From positions 1-38,709 of IMG/VR virus record IMGVR_UViG_3300025122_000056: a stretch of 38,709 bases of DNA, one strand, 5' to 3'. Under the pieces are notes generated by a model, which was not told the origin of the DNA, did not search any database, and worked only from the letters and a program-made list of their open reading frames with translations. The stretch's first letter is position 1; each line of letters begins with the position of its first letter. Shown here piece after piece: positions 5,321-37,859 of the stretch. This DNA comes from a virus. Made by a program: the position numbers and the translations under genes.

Positions 5321-5515
5321 TCAACTGATTTTTCTCAAGTCCTGGGTGAGATAGCGCCTCAGTGGTCCATTCAGAATCTGTACATGCCAGACCGGGAAGG
5401 GGCGCGGGTCAATATCGTCGACCTGGGTGTCTCTCACCTTCACGATTAGGCCGATTGAATCCTTTGGTATACCAATGGAAGCCCTCGTAATCCTTACCAA
5501 ATCACCCGGCTGCAC
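5321..5515 (-). CDS. Array 1 family protein, 64 aa (last of array)
   Basis: It starts at GTG with MQPGDLVRITRASIG, then SIGLIVKVRDTQVDD and VWHVQIL, the strand pattern of the family. Being last in the array, it ends RYLTQDLRKIS and lacks the ELVSESR tail, as expected if that tail only exists to overlap a following gene. Its GTG lies in the last codons of the 57-aa neighbour, sharing 14 bases. Confidence 0.8.
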   Translation of the reverse strand: MQPGDLVRITRASIGIPKDSIGLIVKVRDTQVDDIDPRPFPVWHVQILNGPLRRYLTQDLRKIS

Positions 5516-5675
5516 TGATGACCTCCAGATAATGCTGATTGACTCTTTCTAAGTCGTTCTCGTGAGAGGCCCAAACTACGTGTAATATCAAGTCGTTCTC
5601 CCTGGCAACCACAACGCCTAGGCGACCAGTGCGCCAGGGTTCGGGTGTTAGTCTAACAATATCACCGACTTTCAC
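5502..5675 (-). CDS. Array 1 family protein, 57 aa
   Basis: GTG start, MKVGDIVRLTPEPWRTGRLG, then VVVARENDLILHVVWASHEN and the tail YLEVISAAG. The end differs from ESR because the next gene starts MQPGD, not MKVGD: the overlap changes both proteins together. Well-formed GGAG-type ribosome sites lie at both junctions. Confidence 0.8.
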   Translation of the reverse strand: MKVGDIVRLTPEPWRTGRLGVVVARENDLILHVVWASHENDLERVNQHYLEVISAAG

Positions 5676-5856
5676 TGACAAGCTCCAAGGCGTATTGAGG
5701 GCAGGATTTCAGTTCGCGGTCTGGCATCGTCGGCCAGCGAACATAACACCGTTGCGCTCGGGTGTTCGGGGGCGAGACCTTTACGATAAGGCCAATGCCA
5801 TACAGGCGTGGAGGTTGGACTGAAGGCCTCATCCTTACCAAGTCACCGACGTTCAT
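5662..5856 (-). CDS. Array 1 family protein, 64 aa
   Basis: ATG at 5856 starts MNVGDLVRMRPSVQPPRLYG, then IGLIVKV, CYVRWPTMPDREL and YALELVSESR. It is a close duplicate of the product of 6626-6805 (VRWPTMPDRELK.C..YALEL shared), visible also at DNA level. It is preceded by a border repeat B that breaks the usual gene overlap. A longer frame starts inside that repeat and is not preferred. Confidence 0.8.
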   Translation of the reverse strand: MNVGDLVRMRPSVQPPRLYGIGLIVKVSPPNTRAQRCYVRWPTMPDRELKSCPQYALELVSESR

Positions 5857-5861
5857 TATAC

Positions 5862-5884
5862 GCCTCGCATGCGAGCAAAAAATC
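5862..5884 (-). repeat. Gene-border repeat B, copy 5
   Basis: The minus strand reads GATTTTTTGCTCGCATGCGA then GGC, in the 26-base gap between two array genes that would otherwise overlap. It gives the GAGG ribosome site of the 64-aa gene and contains the 12-bp palindrome CTCGCATGCGAG. Confidence 0.6.
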
Positions 5885-6107
5885 ACACCGGGTGAAAATC
5901 AAAATCGTTATCACCGGTAACTGAAATAATACGCCAGTGCTTTCCATTCAGTGTTTCAAGTTCGGCAATCTCCGTACCAGCAGGAAAGCGACCATGCGGC
6001 ATTGCGCCTTTGATGTTCTTAACCTTCCAAAGTTCGCCTTGTTCTCTAACACGATTCTTGCCATGGCGTGTCTTTCCAGAAAGAACTAAAATATCACCTA
6101 CTTTCAC
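5883..6107 (-). CDS. Divergent array 1 protein, 74 aa
   Basis: GTG start, MKVGDILVLSGKTRHGKNRV. The middle (GELWKVKNIKGAMPHGRF, then GTEIAELETLNGKHWRIISV) keeps a beta-rich pattern, but the tail is DNDFDFHPV, not an ESR type. It ends in border repeat B and is not overlapped by the following gene. It may be a family member that joined the array by recombination at the shared start. Confidence 0.7.
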   Translation of the reverse strand: MKVGDILVLSGKTRHGKNRVREQGELWKVKNIKGAMPHGRFPAGTEIAELETLNGKHWRIISVTGDNDFDFHPV

Positions 6108-6288
6108 TGATTACCTCGATAAACGCCTGGCTCATTGGGACGCCGCGATCAAAGTTTGGTCCTGCGACGGGAGCCAAGTCCCAATACTTTGAGTAGCCAT
6201 CCCAATCTGAACGCATTTTCGTTTTTCTGATAATAATATAGTAACCGATTCGCGCAGGTAAAACTTGAACTAGGTCTCCGACTTTCAT
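6094..6288 (-). CDS. Array 1 family protein, 64 aa
   Basis: ATG start, MKVGDLVQVLPARIGYYIII, then YWDLAPVAGPNFDRG and FIEVISESR. It is strikingly similar to the product of 17470-17658 in the other array (VGDLVQVLPA.IGYYII, LAPV...NF, FIEV.SES), so the two arrays exchanged or duplicated members. Confidence 0.82.
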   Translation of the reverse strand: MKVGDLVQVLPARIGYYIIIRKTKMRSDWDGYSKYWDLAPVAGPNFDRGVPMSQAFIEVISESR

Positions 6289-6473
6289 TCTATGACTTCG
6301 ACCCATCCCTTCGCCATAGGCTTGACCTTGCCACACCAGCGGCCTTCCATGAGAAACTGGACTTTGACCATGTTGTCGCTAACACTGACGATGATTCCAA
6401 TGCCGGGGTTTTCGCCACCTAACATTCGATCGATTTTGGGACTGATAACCCTAATCAAGTCACCGACCTTCAC
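6285..6473 (-). CDS. Array 1 family protein, 62 aa
   Basis: GTG at 6473 gives MKVGDLIRVISPKIDRMLGG, then GIGIIVSVSDNMVKVQFL and the tail KGWVEVIE. Here the junction with the next gene is the short ATGA type instead of the 14-base overlap, and the ESR tail is accordingly absent. Confidence 0.8.
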   Translation of the reverse strand: MKVGDLIRVISPKIDRMLGGENPGIGIIVSVSDNMVKVQFLMEGRWCGKVKPMAKGWVEVIE

Positions 6474-6639
6474 TGACAAGCTCCAAAGCACCTATACCAA
6501 ACCAGTCAATATCGCCATCAATGAAAAAAACTTGATAAGGAAACAATAAATCGATGGTACACGGTTGATGAAAGTTGACCTCCACAATGAAGCCCAGCGT
6601 ACCATCCATGCCATGACGAACAATGTCACCGACTTTCAC
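6460..6639 (-). CDS. Array 1 family protein, 59 aa
   Basis: GTG at 6639 gives MKVGDIVRHGMDGTLGFIVE, then IDLLFPYQVFFIDGDIDWFG and ALELVSEGR. The R of the tail comes from the CGG of the next gene's MKVGD start. Confidence 0.8.
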   Translation of the reverse strand: MKVGDIVRHGMDGTLGFIVEVNFHQPCTIDLLFPYQVFFIDGDIDWFGIGALELVSEGR

Positions 6640-6805
6640 TGACAAGCTCCAGGGCGTATCGGGCGCAGGGTTTCAGTTCACGGTCTGGCATTGTGGGCCA
6701 CCTGACGAAACACCGGGTGCCTTCGATCTCTATAACGAGGCCGATTCCATACAAGTGCGGAGGGGCAACCGCTGGTCGAATCTTAACCAAATCACCGACT
6801 TGCAT
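6626..6805 (-). CDS. Array 1 family protein, 59 aa
   Basis: ATG at 6805 gives MQVGDLVKIRPAVAPPHLYG, then IGLVIEIEGTRCFVRWPTMP and RYALELVSESR. It is a recent duplicate of the 5662-5856 product, separated from it by four other members, so the duplication was not simple neighbour-to-neighbour copying or was followed by rearrangement. Confidence 0.82.
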   Translation of the reverse strand: MQVGDLVKIRPAVAPPHLYGIGLVIEIEGTRCFVRWPTMPDRELKPCARYALELVSESR

Positions 6806-7007
6806 GGACAACCTCTAACACGTCTCTTTCTGGTAATGAAGTGTTATTACCATGGTAATCTGGTGCACCAGCCCAAAAGACCCTACATCGGATTCCGATA
6901 CACTCAATGATTACGCCGACGTCGCCAACAAAAGAACCATTATAAGCCGTTCTTTTTATTGCTTCATCGTCAAACCTAACCAAGTCACCAACCCTCGGCT
7001 TGACCAT
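6792..7007 (-). CDS. Array 1 family protein, 71 aa (first family member)
   Basis: ATG at 7007 (MVKPRVGDLVRFDDEAIKRT) overlaps the stop of the basic 48-aa gene as TAATG. The pattern continues VGDVGVIIECIGIRCRVFWA and ends VLEVVHASR, where HASR replaces SESR because the following gene starts MQVGD. Confidence 0.8.
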   Translation of the reverse strand: MVKPRVGDLVRFDDEAIKRTAYNGSFVGDVGVIIECIGIRCRVFWAGAPDYHGNNTSLPERDVLEVVHASR

Positions 7008-14814: not shown

Positions 14815-14842
14815 ACCATAGGAACCAAAAGATTCTAGTCAA
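14815..14842 (-). promoter_or_regulatory. Promoter of tRNA-Ile
   Basis: -35 TTGACT, 16-nt spacer ending in GTTCC, -10 TATGGT. Its -35 overlaps the stop codon of the last gene of array 2. Confidence 0.82.
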
Positions 14843-15021
14843 GACTCAGAAACAAGAAGTAATGTTTCTTCTCGTCGGCTGTGTTCCTCACCTTCAAGTA
14901 TATATAATCTAACGGATTTTCCATCTCGCTCACTTTCAATAACCTCAACAATCATCTTGGCTGGATAGATTTCTTTGTAGTTTGAGTAACTTGAAGGTAT
15001 TACTAAATCACCGACTTTCAT
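14839..15021 (-). CDS. Array 2 family protein, 60 aa (last of array)
   Basis: ATG, MKVGDLVIPSSYSNYKEIYP, then AKMIVEVIESERDGKSVRLY and the tail LLLVSES. Although last, it keeps a SES end; its stop codon is reused in the TTGACT -35 of the tRNA promoter. It may once have been followed by another member. Confidence 0.8.
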   Translation of the reverse strand: MKVGDLVIPSSYSNYKEIYPAKMIVEVIESERDGKSVRLYILEGEEHSRREETLLLVSES

Positions 15022-15214
15022 TGATAACCTCTATACTACTTCGGTACTCGGGCATTCCATATGACACCGCCCATCTTTCGTCTGTCCATTCTGGATCGTA
15101 CTTGTTCCATAATACAACAGGGTCATTATCTTCATCGTAGTCTACAACCACGCCCACATATCCATCATTTCTTCGCGGATTGTGGACTGGTATAACCAAG
15201 TCACCGACTTTCAC
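15008..15214 (-). CDS. Array 2 family protein, 68 aa
   Basis: GTG, MKVGDLVIPVHNPRRNDGYV, then GVVVDYDEDNDPVVLWNKYD and SIEVINESR. It shares the VGDLVIP start with the next protein. The NESR ending arises because the following gene starts with ATG (ATCAATG) instead of GTG. Confidence 0.82.
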   Translation of the reverse strand: MKVGDLVIPVHNPRRNDGYVGVVVDYDEDNDPVVLWNKYDPEWTDERWAVSYGMPEYRSSIEVINESR

Positions 15215-15392
15215 TGACGACCCCTAAGTCATTGATATTAAATGTGTATTCAGTATCGAAAACTGCCTTAACAAAGGTGAAGCCGGCCGCATCGGCTGGG
15301 TATACCTGTGTGACTATGCCTATCGTGTCTTCGTATGCTCGACCCTTGCGGGTCTTTCGCAAGGAAAGTTTAACCAAATCACCGACTTTCAC
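15201..15392 (-). CDS. Array 2 family protein, 63 aa
   Basis: GTG, MKVGDLVKLSLRKTRKGRAY, then DTIGIVTQVYPADAAGFTFV and NDLGVVSESR. The N-terminal strand is unusually basic. Confidence 0.82.
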   Translation of the reverse strand: MKVGDLVKLSLRKTRKGRAYEDTIGIVTQVYPADAAGFTFVKAVFDTEYTFNINDLGVVSESR

Positions 15393-15543
15393 TGATTACC
15401 TCACAGCCGCTTGTTACAAACCACCTAATCTCACTGCCACAAAGAACTCGCAGCGAGTTACCTTCCTCGTCAGCATACAATAATAGCCCCATCAAGTGTC
15501 CCCAGGTGGGGTGGTCGTATCTTACCAGATCACCTGCTTTCAC
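15379..15543 (-). CDS. Array 2 family protein, 54 aa
   Basis: GTG, MKAGDLVRYDHPTWGHLMGL, then LLYADEEGNSLRVLCGSEIR and CEVISESR. It is the shortest member, with a compact loop between the first strands. Overlaps of 14 bases occur at both ends. Confidence 0.78.
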   Translation of the reverse strand: MKAGDLVRYDHPTWGHLMGLLLYADEEGNSLRVLCGSEIRWFVTSGCEVISESR

Positions 15544-15709
15544 TGACTAACTCCATACGAGGCTCAACCGTCCACACGGGAACCTCTCTTTCAGAAGTCA
15601 GAGATTGAACTTTCCACCAGCGGTTGCCAAATCCATAAGTTTTGTCTCTCTCAATTAAAATGTAATAACCATCTTGTTCAAGTAAAGTAACTAAATCGCC
15701 GGCCTTCAT
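15530..15709 (-). CDS. Array 2 family protein, 59 aa
   Basis: ATG, MKAGDLVTLLEQDGYYILIE, then YGFGNRWWKVQSLTSEREVP and MELVSESR. The segment GYYILIE with a following (W)WKV resembles the GYYII group (6094 and 17470). Both this and the next gene start MKAGD, and the tail keeps ESR because the reading frame over AAAGCAGGTGA still encodes ESR. Confidence 0.78.
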   Translation of the reverse strand: MKAGDLVTLLEQDGYYILIERDKTYGFGNRWWKVQSLTSEREVPVWTVEPRMELVSESR

Positions 15710-15939
15710 ATTTTTCTACCAGCACCTACGATCGAGCGGTCGCTTTCTTCAATCACTTCGTTTGCCGGAATCCAATGAACTTTGTAATAAGGAAGATCGG
15801 CCAACCTCAAATCAATATCTATTACGATTCCTATTTCCCAATCGTTTCCCTGTTCAGGCGTCCAGCCCCCTTCATTGAGGAGGTTCTTTTCTTCGTTGGC
15901 AGAAAGCTTAACTAAATCACCAACTTCAAACTTCGTCAC
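15706..15939 (-). CDS. Array 2 family protein, 77 aa
   Basis: GTG at 15939 (MTKFEVGDLVKLSANEEKNL), then WEIGIVIDIDLRLADLPYYK, VHWIPANEVIEESDRSI and a basic end (GAGRKI). The junction downstream is ATGA, so the usual tail is missing. The longer frame to 15987 lies within the previous gene and is not needed. Confidence 0.78.
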   Translation of the reverse strand: MTKFEVGDLVKLSANEEKNLLNEGGWTPEQGNDWEIGIVIDIDLRLADLPYYKVHWIPANEVIEESDRSIVGAGRKI

Positions 15940-16120
15940 GAACAACCTCAATGCATTGTGATGGTGTCCAGGCTTTTTGTGGACCATATTCGCTAGCTAG
16001 CCAATGAACCCAGGCTCCAGGGTTTGAACTAACCGCCTCTAGTTTGAGGACTAGTCCAAGGTTATTCAATAAATAAGGGCGCTGAGAGTTAGTCCACCTT
16101 ACTAAATCACCGACTTTCAT
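15926..16120 (-). CDS. Array 2 family protein, 64 aa
   Basis: ATG, MKVGDLVRWTNSQRPYLLNN, then LGLVLKLEAVSSNPGAWVHW and CIEVVRDEV. The tail RDEV replaces SESR because the next gene begins MTKFEVGD: the shared bases GTGACGAAGTTTGA encode both. Confidence 0.8.
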   Translation of the reverse strand: MKVGDLVRWTNSQRPYLLNNLGLVLKLEAVSSNPGAWVHWLASEYGPQKAWTPSQCIEVVRDEV

Positions 16121-16344
16121 TCAAAAATCCACAGGTCTTTACAGTCAATCCAAACAGGACCATAGCCGAGAAAATAATCGGTAAACTGGATGCGAGCAAT
16201 AGGAATTCGAAAGCCGGCCTGACCTCGTTCGATAACAAGTCCGGTGTGATAAAAAATCTCACCACCGAAGGTCGGATCACGCTTATACTCCACTAAATCA
16301 CCCGGCTTGATTGTTCGACAATCTTTCGGCTTTACTGATTTCAT
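16117..16344 (-). CDS. Array 2 family protein, 75 aa
   Basis: ATG, MKSVKPKDCRTIKPGDLVEY: the family start is preceded by an extra ten residues. It continues FYHTGLVIERGQAGFRIPIA and ends DLWIFE. Both junctions are of the ATGA type, unlike most of the array. Confidence 0.78.
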   Translation of the reverse strand: MKSVKPKDCRTIKPGDLVEYKRDPTFGGEIFYHTGLVIERGQAGFRIPIARIQFTDYFLGYGPVWIDCKDLWIFE

Positions 16345-16505
16345 CTACAGCCTTCACATCTTTTTTGAAGCCACTCTTCGATTATGTCACCAATGACATC
16401 CATTACGGCCTCGAAGTCACCTTTATCATCTAGACAGCGCGCAGCGCATTTTTCAGCCATGGCCTCGCGTATAGAATCTTCAAGATTAGAATAATCACAC
16501 TTCAC
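16341..16505 (-). CDS. Unrelated helical protein inside array 2, 54 aa
   Basis: GTG start overlapping the previous gene's end by 11 bases. The product (MKCDYSNLEDSIREAMAEKC, AARCLDDKGDFEAVMDVIGD, IIEEWLQKRCEGCR) is acidic and helical with five cysteines, quite unlike the beta-rich family around it. The cysteines (C-AARC, RCEGC) might bind a metal. It appears to be an unrelated gene captured between two family members while keeping the overlapping junction style. Confidence 0.68.
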   Translation of the reverse strand: MKCDYSNLEDSIREAMAEKCAARCLDDKGDFEAVMDVIGDIIEEWLQKRCEGCR

Positions 16506-16692
16506 TTAAAACCTCAAAATTATGTTTATTTTCAATGCTTTTTCCCCTTGGAGGGCTAATCCAATGTACCAAAATCCAGTCAGGGCCATCTTCTGTTTCT
16601 AAAGTAGAAACCAAAGCAAAATGGTCAAGCCATATTTCATTAGAAGGTGCGACGGGTCGACCAGTCCAATGAACTAAATCACCCGGCTTCAT
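16495..16692 (-). CDS. Array 2 family protein, 65 aa
   Basis: ATG, MKPGDLVHWTGRPVAPSNEI, then HFALVSTLETEDGPDWILVH, WISPPRG and FEVLSEV. The end SEV instead of SESR follows from the next gene's GTGAAGTGTGA start. Confidence 0.8.
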   Translation of the reverse strand: MKPGDLVHWTGRPVAPSNEIWLDHFALVSTLETEDGPDWILVHWISPPRGKSIENKHNFEVLSEV

Positions 16693-16897
16693 TTAGAACC
16701 TCCAGCCAACCGGCGAGCATACAATCTCGGTCCTCACCTTCTTTTGCTAGGTGTGCCGGTGAAACCCAACGAACCCACCAGCGATGAACACGCTGCTTGT
16801 GTTGCCGATACACAATACCAATCGGGTAGTATTGTTCGCCTCCAATATCGTCTGGACCCCATGCGTCGATACTTCTTGCCAAGTTACCGATTTTCAT
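16679..16897 (-). CDS. Array 2 family protein, 72 aa
   Basis: ATG at 16897, MKIGNLARSIDAWGPDDIGG, then YYPIGIVYRQHKQRVHRWWV, RWVSPAHLA and WLEVLNEAG. The GD of the start is replaced by GN. The RWWVRWVSP segment resembles the RWLNPP of the next member. Confidence 0.78.
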   Translation of the reverse strand: MKIGNLARSIDAWGPDDIGGEQYYPIGIVYRQHKQRVHRWWVRWVSPAHLAKEGEDRDCMLAGWLEVLNEAG

Positions 16898-17079
16898 ACT
16901 TTCTCCAGCCAACTGGCGCTGTTCCAAGACACCTCTGCGATGCCCGCTGGAGGGTTTAGCCAGCGTATCAAATATCCTACTCGCCAGTCGTCAACTCGCG
17001 GCTGGTCGACCTCAAGTATAATCCCCAAATCGCAACGGACGTTGGCGTAGGTGTTTTTTACTAAATCACCGACTTTCAT
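16894..17079 (-). CDS. Array 2 family protein, 61 aa
   Basis: ATG, MKVGDLVKNTYANVRCDLGI, then ILEVDQPRVDDWRVGYLIRW, LNPPAG and ASWLEKV. The downstream junction is ATGA; the upstream one shares 14 bases. Confidence 0.8.
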   Translation of the reverse strand: MKVGDLVKNTYANVRCDLGIILEVDQPRVDDWRVGYLIRWLNPPAGIAEVSWNSASWLEKV

Positions 17080-17239
17080 CGGCTACCTCCAACATAGATG
17101 CTTGATAATAGCCGGTTGCTGTGTACTTACAACACCATACGATTTTGAAGGAACCTCCGACATGCGTGTGAATAGCTATACCGAGAGGGCCTGAATCAAT
17201 CGTATGACTCTTAAACTTTACCAAATCACCGACTTTCAT
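17066..17239 (-). CDS. Array 2 family protein, 57 aa (leaderless)
   Basis: ATG at 17239, MKVGDLVKFKSHTIDSGPLG, then IAIHTHVGGSFKIVWCCKYT and MLEVADESR. The ATG lies six bases after the -10 of 17246-17273, so it should be the first codon of a leaderless message. It is the first gene of the promoter-proximal sub-operon within the array. Confidence 0.78.
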   Translation of the reverse strand: MKVGDLVKFKSHTIDSGPLGIAIHTHVGGSFKIVWCCKYTATGYYQASMLEVADESR

Positions 17240-17245
17240 GCAACA

Positions 17246-17273
17246 ACCATAAGAACCAAAAAATTAAAGTCTA
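17246..17273 (-). promoter_or_regulatory. Internal promoter splitting array 2
   Basis: -35 TAGACT, 16-nt spacer ending in GTTCT, -10 TATGGT. It lies in the only real gap of the array. Confidence 0.72.
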
Positions 17274-17483
17274 GGCTTTTTGGATTATTGTTACTAAGCC
17301 TTCAGCCAAGGCATCTTCGCCAAGGTCACAGACGTAGGAAATACTCGGCCAGTCTATCTTCCACGAAGGCATAATGCCATCTGGGTAGTCCACGTAGTCC
17401 CCTACCTCGTAGCCAGGACCAACGGACACGACAAGACCTATCTCGCCGTCATGCGTATCTTGAACCAAATCACCAACTTTCAC
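17271..17483 (-). CDS. Array 2 family protein, 70 aa
   Basis: GTG, MKVGDLVQDTHDGEIGLVVS, then VGPGYEVGDYVDYPDGIMPS, WKIDWPSISYV and a final VTIIQKA. It has no ESR tail, consistent with its place before the internal promoter. It is the most acidic member. Confidence 0.78.
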   Translation of the reverse strand: MKVGDLVQDTHDGEIGLVVSVGPGYEVGDYVDYPDGIMPSWKIDWPSISYVCDLGEDALAEGLVTIIQKA

Positions 17484-17658
17484 TTACAACCTCGATAAAC
17501 TTCTCGGCCATCTTGCCGCCGGAATGAAAGTTCGCTTTGCATACGGGTGCCAGAATCCATGTTCGTGAATAACCCCAAGAACTGTCGTCTGCTCCTTCGA
17601 CTATAATATAGTAACCAATCTTCGCGGGTAAAACTTGTACGAGATCACCGACTTTCAC
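17470..17658 (-). CDS. Array 2 family protein, 62 aa
   Basis: GTG, MKVGDLVQVLPAKIGYYIIV, then WGYSRTWILAPVCKANFHSG and FIEVVSESW. It is a close paralogue of the 6094-6288 product in array 1. The final W replaces R because the next gene's VGD is encoded with TTGG instead of CGG. Confidence 0.82.
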   Translation of the reverse strand: MKVGDLVQVLPAKIGYYIIVEGADDSSWGYSRTWILAPVCKANFHSGGKMAEKFIEVVSESW

Positions 17659-17833
17659 TTACCATCTCCAGTTCGCATTCATGCCACCATCCAATCTCTT
17701 GTCTCCAGCAGACCTCGTAGTATAATATACCGTACTCATCTTCATGAGAGTCTAAAACAATACCGTATTTGAAATCAACGCCAAGCACATTGACCACGCC
17801 GGAACGTAATCGAACAACATCACCGGTCTTCAC
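17645..17833 (-). CDS. Array 2 family protein, 62 aa
   Basis: GTG, MKTGDVVRLRSGVVNVLGVD, then FKYGIVLDSHEDEYGILYYE, VCWRQEIGWWHECELEMVSE and SR. It has a cysteine and tryptophan-rich C-terminal half. Confidence 0.82.
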   Translation of the reverse strand: MKTGDVVRLRSGVVNVLGVDFKYGIVLDSHEDEYGILYYEVCWRQEIGWWHECELEMVSESR

Positions 17834-17993
17834 TAACTACCTTTAGATATTCAACGTCATAGTCGCTAGTGCGTCCAGTGTGCGGCCAACAAATAGAAAC
17901 ATAAGTACAGCCAGGAACCTTTGTCGGCTCTGATATCACAATCGCGATGGTGACGGGGTCGCCCCGATATAATACCAAATCACCAACTTTCAT
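17820..17993 (-). CDS. Array 2 family protein, 57 aa
   Basis: ATG, MKVGDLVLYRGDPVTIAIVI, then SEPTKVPGCTYVSICWPHTG and YLKVVSEDR. SEDR instead of SESR reflects the MKTGD start of the next gene. Confidence 0.8.
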   Translation of the reverse strand: MKVGDLVLYRGDPVTIAIVISEPTKVPGCTYVSICWPHTGRTSDYDVEYLKVVSEDR

Positions 17994-18202
17994 TATAACA
18001 CCACGATTGCGCCGTCGGCGACGTCTGCTAAACTAAACCAAGAGCCGCCAAGTTGTCCATCAATAATATCGCAGCCCCACACGACTCTCCATTGTGGTCC
18101 GGTGTTGTCGACAGACGGTCTGATTTCGAGTACGTGGCCGATGCCACTGTCGATAGGGTCGTTCTTGTGTGCAACATATTGTACCAAATCACCTACTTTC
18201 AC
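17993..18202 (-). CDS. Array 2 family protein, 69 aa
   Basis: GTG, MKVGDLVQYVAHKNDPIDSG, then IGHVLEIRPSVDNTGPQWRV, VWGCDIIDGQLGG and ADGAIVVL. It ends with a TAATG junction and has no ESR tail. Confidence 0.8.
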   Translation of the reverse strand: MKVGDLVQYVAHKNDPIDSGIGHVLEIRPSVDNTGPQWRVVWGCDIIDGQLGGSWFSLADVADGAIVVL

Positions 18203-18377
18203 TGATTAGCTCCAATTCTTCTGTTCCGTGGAAGGAAAAATCGTCGTTCCAATGTACTCTGTGAGAGACAAACCCCTCTTCGGGGTAGTCAGTTATAGAT
18301 GTAATGACGCCAGGACCATAGTAAACATATTTTATCTGGTACTCTTCTTTAAGCAGAACTATGTCACCGACTTTCAC
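18189..18377 (-). CDS. Array 2 family protein, 62 aa
   Basis: GTG at 18377, MKVGDIVLLKEEYQIKYVYY, then GPGVITSITDYPEEGFVSHR, VHWNDDFSFHGTE and LELISESR. The frame is open further upstream, but that region belongs to the neighbouring gene. Confidence 0.8.
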   Translation of the reverse strand: MKVGDIVLLKEEYQIKYVYYGPGVITSITDYPEEGFVSHRVHWNDDFSFHGTEELELISESR

Positions 18378-18609
18378 TGACAAGCTCCATTTCTGTGCCG
18401 TAAACTCTCCACTCGCCAGCATCAAACACGACAGACCAGTATCCCTTCTCGGATCCGATTCCAACTCCAGGGCTCAATCTTTTTATGATGATGCCTTGTC
18501 GGGTACTCTTGCTAGAGCAAAACCAACAGCCGCAATATCCGGTTCCCTCGCGATTGGGAGTGCATGTATTATCTAAATCCAATACACGAACTAAATCACC
18601 GACTTTCAT
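18364..18609 (-). CDS. Array 2 family protein with Cys cluster, 81 aa
   Basis: ATG, MKVGDLVRVLDLDNTCTPNR, then EGTGYCGCWFCSSKSTRQGI and WSVVFDAGEWRV, ending EMELVSESR. The first loop is enlarged by about 20 residues and holds four cysteines (C-x9-C-x-C-x2-C), possibly a metal site not seen in other members. It is the longest in the arrays. Confidence 0.82.
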   Translation of the reverse strand: MKVGDLVRVLDLDNTCTPNREGTGYCGCWFCSSKSTRQGIIIKRLSPGVGIGSEKGYWSVVFDAGEWRVYGTEMELVSESR

Positions 18610-18778
18610 TTACGACCTCCAAATGGTCTGGTCGACCAAACAACGATGTACCATCCTTCCACAAGATTAGCGCGCCTAGGCGAACAGTAGCACAACGTAT
18701 CACGATGCCTATTTGATCTTGACGTTCATACGTCGACCAAAATCCACCAGCAACCTTTACCAAATCACCGACTTTCAT
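18596..18778 (-). CDS. Array 2 family protein, 60 aa
   Basis: ATG, MKVGDLVKVAGGFWSTYERQ, then DQIGIVIRCATVRLGALILW, KDGTSLFGRP and LEVVNESR. The downstream overlap uses ATG (AATGAAAG). Confidence 0.82.
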   Translation of the reverse strand: MKVGDLVKVAGGFWSTYERQDQIGIVIRCATVRLGALILWKDGTSLFGRPDHLEVVNESR

Positions 18779-18984
18779 GCTCGGCTCATGACATGGAACA
18801 GAGTATCTTCAGTACAAAAATCTTCAGAAGTCCAGGGATCAGACAATATCTGGCCTGAACTCCAGGCAACCTCGATCATAAGATAACATTCATCATGGTA
18901 GCATTTTAACACAACGCCGACGGCGCCATCTCTGCAACCAATAATATCACCCGTCTTCGGGGTTTCGTAGTATAATGTATTCAT
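18775..18984 (-). CDS. Array 2 family protein, 69 aa (first of array)
   Basis: ATG, MNTLYYETPKTGDIIGCRDG, then AVGVVLKCYHDECYLMIEVA, WSSGQILSD and LFHVMSRA. The TGDII core is preceded by nine extra residues. The gene begins inside the 3' end of the GIY-YIG gene (overlap about 38 bases) and ends with ATGA. It links the array to the enzyme operon upstream. Confidence 0.75.
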   Translation of the reverse strand: MNTLYYETPKTGDIIGCRDGAVGVVLKCYHDECYLMIEVAWSSGQILSDPWTSEDFCTEDTLFHVMSRA

Positions 18985-21620: not shown

Positions 21621-22607
21621 TTATATGCTATTTTTACAATCAGAAAAGAAAATTTCTATATTACTAGCTAGTTGCGAAGTTATATAACTACACATTTCTT
21701 TTTCGTTTTTTAAATCAATAAGCTGTGAATTGTGATATATTTTCCATTGTCCCAATTCTCGCAATACATCCATTTTGTTGATAACAAGTTTATTAACAGA
21801 ATTAAGGGCAATATTTTTTTGTAACTCGTCTAAGTTAAGCCAATTACATTGGCGCGGCCGGCCGGTGGTCGCACCGTATTCGTCGCCTAAATCACGCAGA
21901 GCTTGAAACACCGGATCGGATGGCTCGAAAGATTTGGCTCCAACATAGGTCTCATAAATCTTTGCGACACCCCATACATCACGAAGCCATCGTGGACTAA
22001 CGGCATTCAAAAATACGCCGCCTAAACCACAGTGACTAGAAGTGACATATGGATAGTCGCCCCAATCAATATCCAAACCGAATCCTTGTGCTCCTTCGCA
22101 TAATACTTTAATTGTTTTATCATTGTGAAATTCCTCGTATAAGTCTATGATATAAGATCGTAATGAAGCTACCTCGTCGGCCCGCATTCCTTTGCGGGCA
22201 TACTTATCGCGATAAGCTGGTCCGTTACCACGTCGCGTGGTACCAATCTTATTTTCTGCTGCTTCTTCAAGAAGATGCCCTTCGGTAATTACATGAGCAT
22301 TCTTCGCAATAAAAAGCGTACCATCTAATTTAATTCCAGCATCTTGTAGCTCTCTTACTTCTTCAAAAAAATGTTTAGGGCTGATTACACATCCAGGTCC
22401 AATAATTGATTTAACCCCATAAAATACGCCGGCAGGAATATGATGTGTTACAAATTTCCTACCTTCGTGATAAATTGTGTGACCAGCGTTACAGCCTCCA
22501 TTAAATCTCAAAACATGAGTATAATTTTTGTTCTTGGATAAGTAGTGTGTAACTTTTCCTTTGGCCTCGTCGCCATGTTGAATTCCTAATACTACGTCAG
22601 CTAACAT
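21621..22607 (-). CDS. purA: Adenylosuccinate synthetase
   Basis: PurA joins IMP and aspartate using GTP, the first step from IMP to AMP. The 328-residue protein has all core motifs: QHGDEAKGK (residues about 10-18), GGCNAGHTI, TTRRGNGPAYRDKYA, CEGAQGFGLDIDWGDYPYVT, TTGRPRQCNWLN and NKMDVL. It is about 100 residues shorter than bacterial PurA, like archaeal and phage forms. The aspartate of the GDE motif, replaced in the PurZ enzymes of phages with 2-aminoadenine DNA, is retained here. PurA activity is therefore favoured. ATG follows AAAGGAAAAAA. An IMP dehydrogenase-like gene at 36.8 kb serves the other IMP branch. Confidence 0.9.
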   Translation of the reverse strand: MLADVVLGIQHGDEAKGKVTHYLSKNKNYTHVLRFNGGCNAGHTIYHEGRKFVTHHIPAGVFYGVKSIIGPGCVISPKHFFEEVRELQDAGIKLDGTLFIAKNAHVITEGHLLEEAAENKIGTTRRGNGPAYRDKYARKGMRADEVASLRSYIIDLYEEFHNDKTIKVLCEGAQGFGLDIDWGDYPYVTSSHCGLGGVFLNAVSPRWLRDVWGVAKIYETYVGAKSFEPSDPVFQALRDLGDEYGATTGRPRQCNWLNLDELQKNIALNSVNKLVINKMDVLRELGQWKIYHNSQLIDLKNEKEMCSYITSQLASNIEIFFSDCKNSI

Positions 22608-23391: not shown

Positions 23392-23663
23392 AGATTTCTC
23401 TCTGCATATTCAGTACACTTCTTTAGAGAATCAACTTCCCGACTTGGTTCAACAACCACCAGTTCATCAATTCGATATTCATGATAATAGTGATCGCCTC
23501 CGCGCATTTCGTTTATAAAATCCATCGCACTTTCATACTTCTCATCGTTAAACCATTTTACTTTTGCAAACGACCAATTGTTCTTTCTTGCTTCCAGATT
23601 TGTTACCACACCATAACGTCGTATGCCTTGATAATTCTGAAATACAATATCGCTAACTTTCAC
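23388..23663 (-). CDS. Array-family relative outside the arrays, 91 aa
   Basis: GTG start, MKVSDIVFQNYQGIRRYGVV, then NNWSFAKVKWFNDEKYESAM and IDELVVVEPSREVD. Pattern and size match the array proteins with a C-terminal extension. Its start overlaps the end of the 184-aa gene, which accordingly ends GGLSES, the same tail seen in the arrays. This shows the overlapping start cassette attached to an unrelated upstream gene. Confidence 0.72.
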   Translation of the reverse strand: MKVSDIVFQNYQGIRRYGVVTNLEARKNNWSFAKVKWFNDEKYESAMDFINEMRGGDHYYHEYRIDELVVVEPSREVDSLKKCTEYAERNL

Positions 23664-36496: not shown

Positions 36497-36837
36497 AATT
36501 CTGGAAATTCCTCCGCAATAATATCGAATATATCTTCAATTTCATTTTCATTAAGAGCGAATTGTTTTTTGGTTTCGTTATATTTTTTGAGACCTTTTAC
36601 AATTTGTTTGCGTTTTTGAACTCCCTGCGTCACATGCTTCTCTTTATATTCATCTAAATATTTGGTTATGTGTTCGTCTTTCTCTAGGTAGCCAGTGATC
36701 ATTGCGCGAAAAAAATGAGACTGTGTAAATCCGTCTAATTGTAATCTTATTTTTAAATCAGCCTGTCGTTTTGGAGAATCCCAAAACATTAATTTTTTAC
36801 GATCATCGGGCCTAGGCTGCGCCGGATCTTTAGCCAT
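36493..36837 (-). CDS. Ribbon-helix-helix-like DNA-binding protein, 114 aa
   Basis: Residues about 27-55 (DLKIRLQLDGFTQSHFFRAM, ITGYLEKDEH) fit a ribbon-helix-helix: a strand, then two helices. A basic linker (EKHVTQGVQKRKQIVKGLKK) and an acidic C-terminal helix follow. Such proteins bind DNA as dimers. It lies between the IMP dehydrogenase-like gene and the zinc/region-4 regulator, both with overlapping ends. Confidence 0.65.
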   Translation of the reverse strand: MAKDPAQPRPDDRKKLMFWDSPKRQADLKIRLQLDGFTQSHFFRAMITGYLEKDEHITKYLDEYKEKHVTQGVQKRKQIVKGLKKYNETKKQFALNENEIEDIFDIIAEEFPEL

Positions 36838-37859
36838 TAACTCCTCCTCAAAATGTGGGTGGAACTTTCGGATTGACCAGAATATGTCTGTCGGATGAAA
36901 GTTGCTTTACATCGAAGCTCTTGCAAGCTTCGTACACCTGAGTAAGAGAGACCACCGCGTATACCCCCAGCAAGATCTTTAAGAATAGCATTAACACTGC
37001 CTTTATACGGAACGGTAGTCGAAATTCCTTCCGGTGCGGAAGATTTGCCCCGCCAATCATTTTGCGCTTCGGACGATGCCATGCCCCTGTAGACTTTGTA
37101 TTTTTTGCCTGAGTTTGCTGTGAATATTTCACCAGGAGATTCCTTGGTACCAGCGAGCAAAGAGCCAATCATAACAAAATCTGCGCCAGCTGCCAATGAT
37201 TTAATTATATCGCCGGAAGTTTTTATTCCCCCATCAGCAATAATTTTTGTATCATATTCACTTTTCGCGCAGTCCATAATGCTTTGTAATGTTGGTATGC
37301 CATGGCCAGAAACTAGGCGCGTAGAGCATATAGAGCCTCCTCCGATGCCAACACGAATTGAATCGGCACCCCAGGAGGCCAAAGCATCAAATCCTTCAAG
37401 AGTGGCAACATTCCCAGCCATAATATGAACTTCATCCCCAAAACGATCTTTGAGTGTTTTGAGGCAACGTTCCATCATAATATGATGTCCATGAGCAACG
37501 TCAACACACAATACTTGTACGCCAACCATCTTCAATGCCATGGCGCGTTCTTCAAAATCACCAGTCATTCCAATCGCCGCACCGACTTTTAATTTACCAT
37601 TCTCATAAAGTACCCGGGCAGCAATTCTCACTTGTTCGGGAATTTCATTATATCGATGAACAATTCCCATCCCACCGCACCTTGACATTGCAATTGCCAT
37701 TTTATCTTCTGTGATGGTATCCATCGGGCTTGATATAATTGGTAATTTAAAACTTAAACTTTCATCTAATTTGCTACCAATGTCAACCTGATTTCTACTT
37801 TCGATATTGCTGTATTTTGGCACCAACAATACATCATCATATGATAATACTTCTTTCAC
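36837..37859 (-). CDS. IMP dehydrogenase/GMP reductase family enzyme
   Basis: A 340-residue TIM-barrel enzyme without CBS domains. N-terminus LSYDDVLLVPKYSNI, IISSPMDTITEDKMA, then AHGHHIMMERCLKTL, phosphate-binding GIGGGSICSTR with the catalytic Cys (about residue 178), DGGIKTSGDIIKSLAAGAD, and YRGMASSEAQ plus APEGISTTVPYKGSV. IMP dehydrogenase makes XMP from IMP; GMP reductase does the reverse direction from GMP. Length suits GMP reductase or CBS-less IMPDH, and the YRGMAS and EGISTTVPYKG motifs suit either. With PurA in the window, control of purine supply is likely. Confidence 0.9.
   Translation of the reverse strand: MKEVLSYDDVLLVPKYSNIESRNQVDIGSKLDESLSFKLPIISSPMDTITEDKMAIAMSRCGGMGIVHRYNEIPEQVRIAARVLYENGKLKVGAAIGMTGDFEERAMALKMVGVQVLCVDVAHGHHIMMERCLKTLKDRFGDEVHIMAGNVATLEGFDALASWGADSIRVGIGGGSICSTRLVSGHGIPTLQSIMDCAKSEYDTKIIADGGIKTSGDIIKSLAAGADFVMIGSLLAGTKESPGEIFTANSGKKYKVYRGMASSEAQNDWRGKSSAPEGISTTVPYKGSVNAILKDLAGGIRGGLSYSGVRSLQELRCKATFIRQTYSGQSESSTHILRRS

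Follow-up and report, generated by a model that had tools for sequence, protein, structure and literature searches.

A recurrent C-terminal tail in tandem arrays of small viral genes mostly reflects the start of the next gene

Introduction

In coupled overlapping gene pairs, two co-directional genes share stop and start bases as ATGA or TGATG, and the second gene is translated by termination-reinitiation (PMC6728339, PMC10666635, PMC12548453). The commonest overlap length in prokaryotes is 4 nt, at about 45% (PMC3887535). An overlapping start can also shape the end of the upstream protein, as in the NNA-UGA bias of last codons, and bacterial C-termini in general disfavour Trp and other hydrophobic residues and favour Arg (PMC7246954). 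Rows of small genes that are gained and lost as units are known from integron gene cassette arrays. Our literature search for the arrangement described here returned only general papers on coupling, overlap length and C-terminal bias.

Here, we describe two arrays of short genes in a 38.7 kb virus record (IMG/VR IMGVR_UViG_3300025122_000056), which was analysed over its whole length of 38,709 nt and is referred to as the window. The junctions of these arrays were compared with those of related loci in viral contigs.

Materials and methods

Searching viral contigs by the full family alignment did not succeed for want of a sufficiently conserved stretch, and DNA patterns were used instead. Three scans yielded about 290 loci (2.6 Mb). 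A family gene was defined as MxxG(D/N), 40-140 aa in length, in a locus with four or more such genes; the survey set comprised 1,138 distinct family proteins. Offsets are given as negative numbers for overlaps, so that -14 denotes a 14 nt overlap with the successor, and the start region RTG-AAR-GTN-GGT-GAY is called the head. For the codon tests one seed per locus was dropped; seeds were kept in the counts of tails by junction class. As the array genes are related and short, p-values are approximate and none is exact. Gain and loss of genes was followed in a relative, L117, that is 95-99% identical to the window in the shared parts. The fold was predicted with AlphaFold2 and compared using Foldseek.

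Results

The window and its arrays

The window encodes GroEL, a ClpP-like head protease, an adenylosuccinate-synthetase-like gene, a sigma factor and five tRNAs. Neither DNA nor protein searches recovered a cultured phage relative. All array genes lie on the minus strand, are short (mostly 54-81 aa) and share the N-terminus MKVGD(L/I)V, with bodies that have diverged to 20-35% identity. The main array (Table 1) has thirteen -14 junctions, four -4 junctions and one -1 junction, together with one 31 nt gap and one -11 overlap with a short non-family gene. The second array has six -14 junctions, one -4 junction and one 26 nt gap.

Several further features were seen. Two phage-borne purine genes are present, one adenylosuccinate-synthetase-like (21621-22607) and one IMP-dehydrogenase/GMP-reductase-like (36837-37859; recognised by eye only). 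A non-family short gene (CLDDxxDFxAVMxVI...RCxGCR) sits inside the array with the same joints, both in the window (16505-16341) and in L117 (about 1056-900). Across the window and loci the intergenic repeat TTTTTTGCTCGC occurs 17 times, where about 0.3 copies are expected (minus strand of the window at 5882, 3545, 2947, 2543 and 2506; also L008 and L071); it lies directly 3' of several gene stops and is a putative control element. The same junction pattern was found in bacterial MAGs (L298-L306; bins of Halobacteriovorax, Deltaproteobacteria and Flavobacteriales, and a WOR-3 chromosome); these matches are possibly host clues or wrongly binned viral contigs.

Table 1. Coordinates of arrays, genes, overlaps and a putative promoter in the window
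Positions	Strand	Feature	Remarks
5321..7007	-	Second array	Nine MKVGD-type genes
5502..5515	-	14-nt overlap GTGCAGCCGGGTGA	SAAG-stop / MQPGD (first codon also written V: VQPGD)
5502..5675	-	MKVGD family gene, 57 aa	GTG start, end SAAG
5662..5675	-	14-nt overlap GTGAAAGTCGGTGA	SESR-stop of 5856-5662 / start of 5675-5502
6285..6288	-	4-nt ATGA overlap	Head GGAGAC (at 6288); previous gene ends EVIE, no tail
14815..14842	-	Putative promoter	TTGACT (14842-14837), 16 nt, TATGGT (14820-14815)
14839..15021	-	Last main-array gene	End LLLVSES-stop (TCT GAG TCT TGA), no overlapping start
14839..18984	-	Main array	MKVGD-type genes
15706..15709	-	4-nt ATGA overlap	Head GGCGAT (at 15709); previous gene ends GRKI
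15926..15939	-	14-nt overlap	RDEV-stop / MTKFEVGD
16495..16505	-	11-nt overlap	SEV-stop (TGA from Cys-Asp codons TGTGAT) / non-family gene MKCDYSNLED...
16679..16692	-	14-nt overlap	NEAG-stop / MKPGD
16894..16897	-	4-nt ATGA overlap	Head GGTAAC (Gly-Asn, no TGA, at 16897); previous gene ends LEKV
17470..17483	-	14-nt overlap	SESW-stop (GTT codon) / MKVGD; left boundary of cassette 17483-17271 + 31 nt
17820/17833	-	14-nt overlap	SEDR / MKTGD
18364..18377	-	14-nt overlap	SESR-stop / MKVGD; right boundary of cassette 18609-18364
18596..18609	-	14-nt overlap	NESR-stop / MKVGD; left boundary of cassette missing from L117
23653..23663	-	11-nt overlap, stop TAG	184-aa protein 24207-23653 / MKVSD gene 23663-23388

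Geometry of the joint

At 19 family junctions of the window the overlap is exactly 14 nt, and (A/G)TGAAAGTCGGTGA of the next gene is SESR-stop or NESR-stop in the frame of the previous one. The shared bases, (A/G)TG AAA GTC GG TGA, encode M-K-V-G-D from the first base; shifted by two bases, into the frame of the preceding gene, they encode (S/N)-E-S-R-stop. The preceding gene takes its stop TGA from within GGT-GAY, the codons for Gly-Asp in its successor. The initial annotation had proposed this double reading, as well as a change of tail wherever the next start differs; both proposals hold, and its examples SAAG, SEDR and RDEV are all present as described. The gene at 5502-5675, which it had given as an ESR-tailed one, in fact ends SAAG; the preceding gene, 5856-5662, ends SESR because gene 5675-5502 starts there. 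The same effect had been noted at 23653-23663 and was recovered: GTGAAAGTTAG, the start of the MKVSD gene, makes the unrelated 184-aa protein finish in LEGGLSES-stop. Five family junctions of the window (18775, 16894, 16117, 15706 and 6285) have a 4 nt ATGA overlap and no tail, and in three of the five the Gly-Asp (or Gly-Asn) codons of the next head offer no out-of-frame TGA.

The tail follows the next start

Among the 1,138 family proteins the successor lies at -14 in 517 cases, at -4 in 82 and at -1 in 14, with at most eight cases at any other offset; the loci were fetched partly via the junction pattern itself, and 517 cases at exactly -14 are not due to chance. In these three classes the start of the second gene is overlapped or abutted by the stop of the first, as in coupled pairs. 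Since 4 nt is the commonest overlap across prokaryotes, the arrays reverse the usual order.

Tails were counted by junction class. An ESR-like end was found at 412 of the 517 -14 junctions, at none of the 82 -4 junctions and in six of the 214 genes without overlap, a class that depends on the 35-aa limit for a successor. Several of these six have a shortened or frameshifted head still at -14, and most apparent exceptions reflect a start missed by the strict caller or a broken head that was kept. The idea that every exception is a true solitary ESR tail was considered and rejected for most cases, which overlap MKVGE, MKVGS, MKVGDx or non-family starts. Truncated or frameshifted heads, likely relics of array decay, were also seen 3' of intact ESR-tailed genes in L043 (800-971), L053 (9820-10012), L085, L089 and L109.

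The tail is likewise found on unrelated proteins. All 21 non-family proteins of at least 100 aa whose ends reach 14 nt into a family head finish in (E/A)-x-(R/W/G), and the pattern is absent from 27 non-family proteins ending at the -4 position. The MKLVRDxIPxII family shows both states, with NETR at -14 and VGEK or VGKE at -4. In orthologue pairs (body identity at least 60%) with a different successor or junction the tails switch accordingly, and a terminal Arg is rare without overlap (12/214). The tail is thus for the most part the start of the next gene read in another frame. Given a 14 nt overlap it follows from the geometry; the class counts, unrelated proteins, orthologues and Lys codons (see below) add that it is largely lost without overlap and is not bound to the family.

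The proposal that gene overlap imposes the tail therefore stands insofar as the tail tracks the successor and not the family. That overlap alone does so is too strong, as LEV(V/I)(S/N) is kept without overlap, Ser/Asn-Glu recurs and influence runs both ways. Strict imposition is confined to the final two residues, to the stop codon and where it lies, and to codon choices.

Ribosome site and codon effects

Within the LEV strand, Glu is encoded by GAG in 96% of cases at -14, in 88-94% at other overlaps, in 51% without overlap and in 40-49% within gene bodies. A Shine-Dalgarno match of at least 4 nt precedes 91% of -14 starts versus 54% of unoverlapped starts, so that, as in coupled pairs, the site for the second gene lies inside the first. 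The bases that give ELVS or EVIS had been described as the ribosome site at the same time; the codon and match frequencies bear this out, but the residues themselves are kept without overlap. Heads without overlap, which differ from overlapped ones in history as well as in constraint, are relaxed, with GGT in 47%.

The choice of AAA or AAG for Lys at codon 2, which makes the tail residue Ser or Gly, is the same with or without overlap (stratified odds ratio 1.13, z 0.6); as the ratio is unaffected although AAG changes Ser to Gly, there is no sign of selection on that residue. T at the wobble position of codon 3, which would give a C-terminal Trp, is avoided in overlapped heads (9/452 vs 87/442; odds ratio 0.08, z -8.0, stratified by locus), and this avoidance fits the general bacterial C-terminal bias. 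GTG starts, which give a tail Ser instead of Asn, rise from about 15% to 57% in overlapped heads (odds ratio 6.8, z 10.6, stratified by locus). The Lys, wobble-T and GTG results were the same with one gene per similarity cluster. The end of the previous protein is thus associated with a skew in the start codon and wobble base of the next head and probably causes it; shared descent or start-strength effects are possible sources of the same skew.

It was also considered that RNA structure masks the overlapped starts until translation of the upstream gene exposes them. Opening energies did not support this: those of overlapped starts were below those of gene interiors and only slightly above those of unoverlapped starts, and start-region folding was not above that of gene interiors. 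As the start sites are not unusually folded, Shine-Dalgarno-guided restart is favoured over structure opening.

Predicted fold and the residues after the last strand

The family protein was predicted to be a small, five-stranded SH3-like barrel of about 60 aa (pLDDT 90.1, pTM 0.76). Its last predicted strand comprises residues 57-61 (L-E-L-V-S), with ESR beyond the strand and hanging free. Foldseek E-values were weak (best 0.04 in the PDB and 0.001 in viral models); the best structural matches were ribosomal/KOW, Tudor and PetP-type folds, with E-values of 0.04 or weaker. Searches of Pfam and PHROG with ten family members gave no significant match. LEV(V/I) is present in all junction classes, and LEV(V/I)(S/N), kept without overlap and forming the last predicted strand, is a real protein motif in which the ribosome site fixes the codon and not the residue.

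Ser or Asn follows the strand in 46 of 60 cases without overlap, often in codons unable to hold a start. In 13 of 31 such start-incompatible cases the next residue is Glu, versus 6% Glu in gene bodies (examples are AGC GAG, TCA GAG and TCT GAG); part of the tail may therefore be a protein preference, or else a relic that has drifted synonymously. Solitary members had been expected to lack the ESR tail: this Ser/Asn-Glu pair is retained, but the full ESR-like end is as rare as given above. The window contains one exception to that expectation, in which gene 15021-14839 ends LLLVSES-stop with no overlapping successor.

Ends without an overlapping successor

The end of gene 15021-14839 reads TCT-TGA-C, which places its stop TGA within the putative -35 box before tRNA-Ile (14795-14719). 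More widely, 62 of the 119 TGA stops of unoverlapped members lie within TTGAC, a count somewhat inflated by paralogues within one locus, where TTGAC/TGA density predicts about 8%; a TATAAT-like hexamer often follows 16-17 nt further on. None of 509 TGA stops at -14 lies within TTGAC. The last residues of unoverlapped genes tend to mirror whichever element comes next.

The last codons of two family genes (L094 and L120; ends SPGSSVG or SPGSSAG) seem by eye to enter the 5' part of a tRNA (AGCTCAG..GGATAG). At array ends in L005, L006, L042, L052, L084, L110 and others, TATATTATA-like -10 boxes are preceded by CTTGACA-type repeats in tandem at a spacing of about 11 nt; the repeats are possibly activator sites or stacked promoters.

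Gain and loss of single genes

L117 is without window gene 18609-18364 and without window 17483-17271 plus its 31 nt spacer. At both sites its junction joins the left part of one window joint to the right part of the following one, and the changeover falls within the shared head; one extra stretch in L117 is also bounded at heads. Over all loci, 17 distinct indels of at least 100 nt were seen, of which about 12 break on a head, where the homology is 12-38 nt. These breakpoints show whole genes gained and lost between joints, and we infer recombination as the pathway, most likely via the short homology. As repeats attract breakpoints in any homology-driven event, the data show where exchange occurs and not that the head evolved for exchange.

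Discussion

The joint very probably combines a stop, a ribosome site, a start and recombination homology, with the tail mostly a reading of the next start. In the mechanism that we propose, each array gene ends within the start of the next, the head supplying the incoming stop either as GG-TGA-Y (14 nt overlap) or as A-TGA-AR (4 nt overlap), and the 14 nt frame reads the head bases as (S/N)-E-S-R. The codons of the last strand (L-E-V-(V/I)) contain GGAG or GAGG at Shine-Dalgarno distance from the next start, so that a ribosome that has just terminated would be placed to start again. From this layout we infer translational coupling by termination-reinitiation, as in PMC6728339 and PMC12548453. 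The tail is not purely passive, as the previous protein appears to prefer Ser/Asn after the strand and to avoid a C-terminal Trp. Because every joint carries 12-38 nt of near-identical sequence, genes could be lost or gained between joints with stop, ribosome site and start unbroken. Where no gene follows directly, the gene end is often written over a putative promoter -35 box.

Three other explanations were weighed. Plain genome compaction, in which gene ends overprint any element and the 14 nt joint is one case beside promoters and tRNAs, accommodates the TTGAC stops and the two ends that enter tRNA 5' sequence, but leaves one dominant length and the ribosome-site codon unexplained, the overlap being fixed at -14 and not at the usual 4 nt (PMC3887535); we consider it rather unlikely as the whole account. 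Mere inheritance of the junction from recent tandem duplication, with no selection for overlap, agrees with near-identical repeat heads and with genes gained and lost at them. Yet GAG, GGT and the frame are kept between strongly diverged bodies, unoverlapped heads relax at both codons and non-family genes use the same joint, which makes inheritance alone an unlikely cause.

A functional role for the ESR tail as a C-terminal motif (in binding, stability or degradation), with overlap secondary, draws on Ser-Glu in other codons in unoverlapped members, on the avoidance of C-terminal Trp in overlapped genes and on the general findings in bacteria that C-terminal Arg/Lys is enriched and aromatic residues lower expression (PMC7246954). 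Against this, no -4 junction carries the tail, unrelated proteins do, the Ser-to-Gly change meets no counter-selection and a terminal Arg is rare without overlap. A primary role of this kind is thus highly improbable.

Beyond the combined joint, a wider reading is tentative and attracts slightly more doubt than trust from us: the MKVGD start may be an all-in-one joint that starts its own gene, stops the previous one in either other frame and provides homology for single-gene swaps, with the ribosome site behind it on the last beta-strand of the previous protein. If so, any gene ending in either frame could plug in before an MKVGD head, one frame adding a stereotyped tail, and these phages would be able to rework a broad set of small SH3-like proteins with the operon intact. 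The cassette behaviour suggests a route for gene turnover in phage operons that keeps every stop, ribosome site and start. There is also a warning here: conservation of a protein motif can come from a neighbour's start (or a promoter or tRNA) being read out of frame, and family models and annotators would read such a motif as functional. Hundreds of junctions in different frames, together with successor-swapped orthologues, offer natural experiments on the compromise in overlapping coding.

Compared with coupled pairs (PMC6728339, PMC10666635, PMC12548453), the arrays are likewise co-directional with overlapping stop and start, with a Shine-Dalgarno site inside the upstream gene and likely reinitiation. 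They are unlike such pairs in the dominance of 14 nt, the other frame, the hundreds of repeats and the recurrent peptide tail, and their coupling is predicted from the arrangement. In the NNA-UGA bias (PMC7246954) the next start shapes the last codon, as it does here; that bias is a one-base statistical effect across bacteria, whereas the arrays show a motif of three to four residues and a stop that comes from the Gly-Asp codons of the next protein. The predicted array protein resembles SH3-like small barrels of the KOW, Tudor, PetP and PsaE type in its five strands and length of about 60 aa; unlike these named barrels, the family is without a sequence-family match and its Foldseek E-values are weak. 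Like integron gene cassette arrays, the arrays described here line up small genes that come and go as units at a recurring boundary; here the boundary is coding sequence, made up of stop, Shine-Dalgarno site and start, and the breakpoints lie in the heads.
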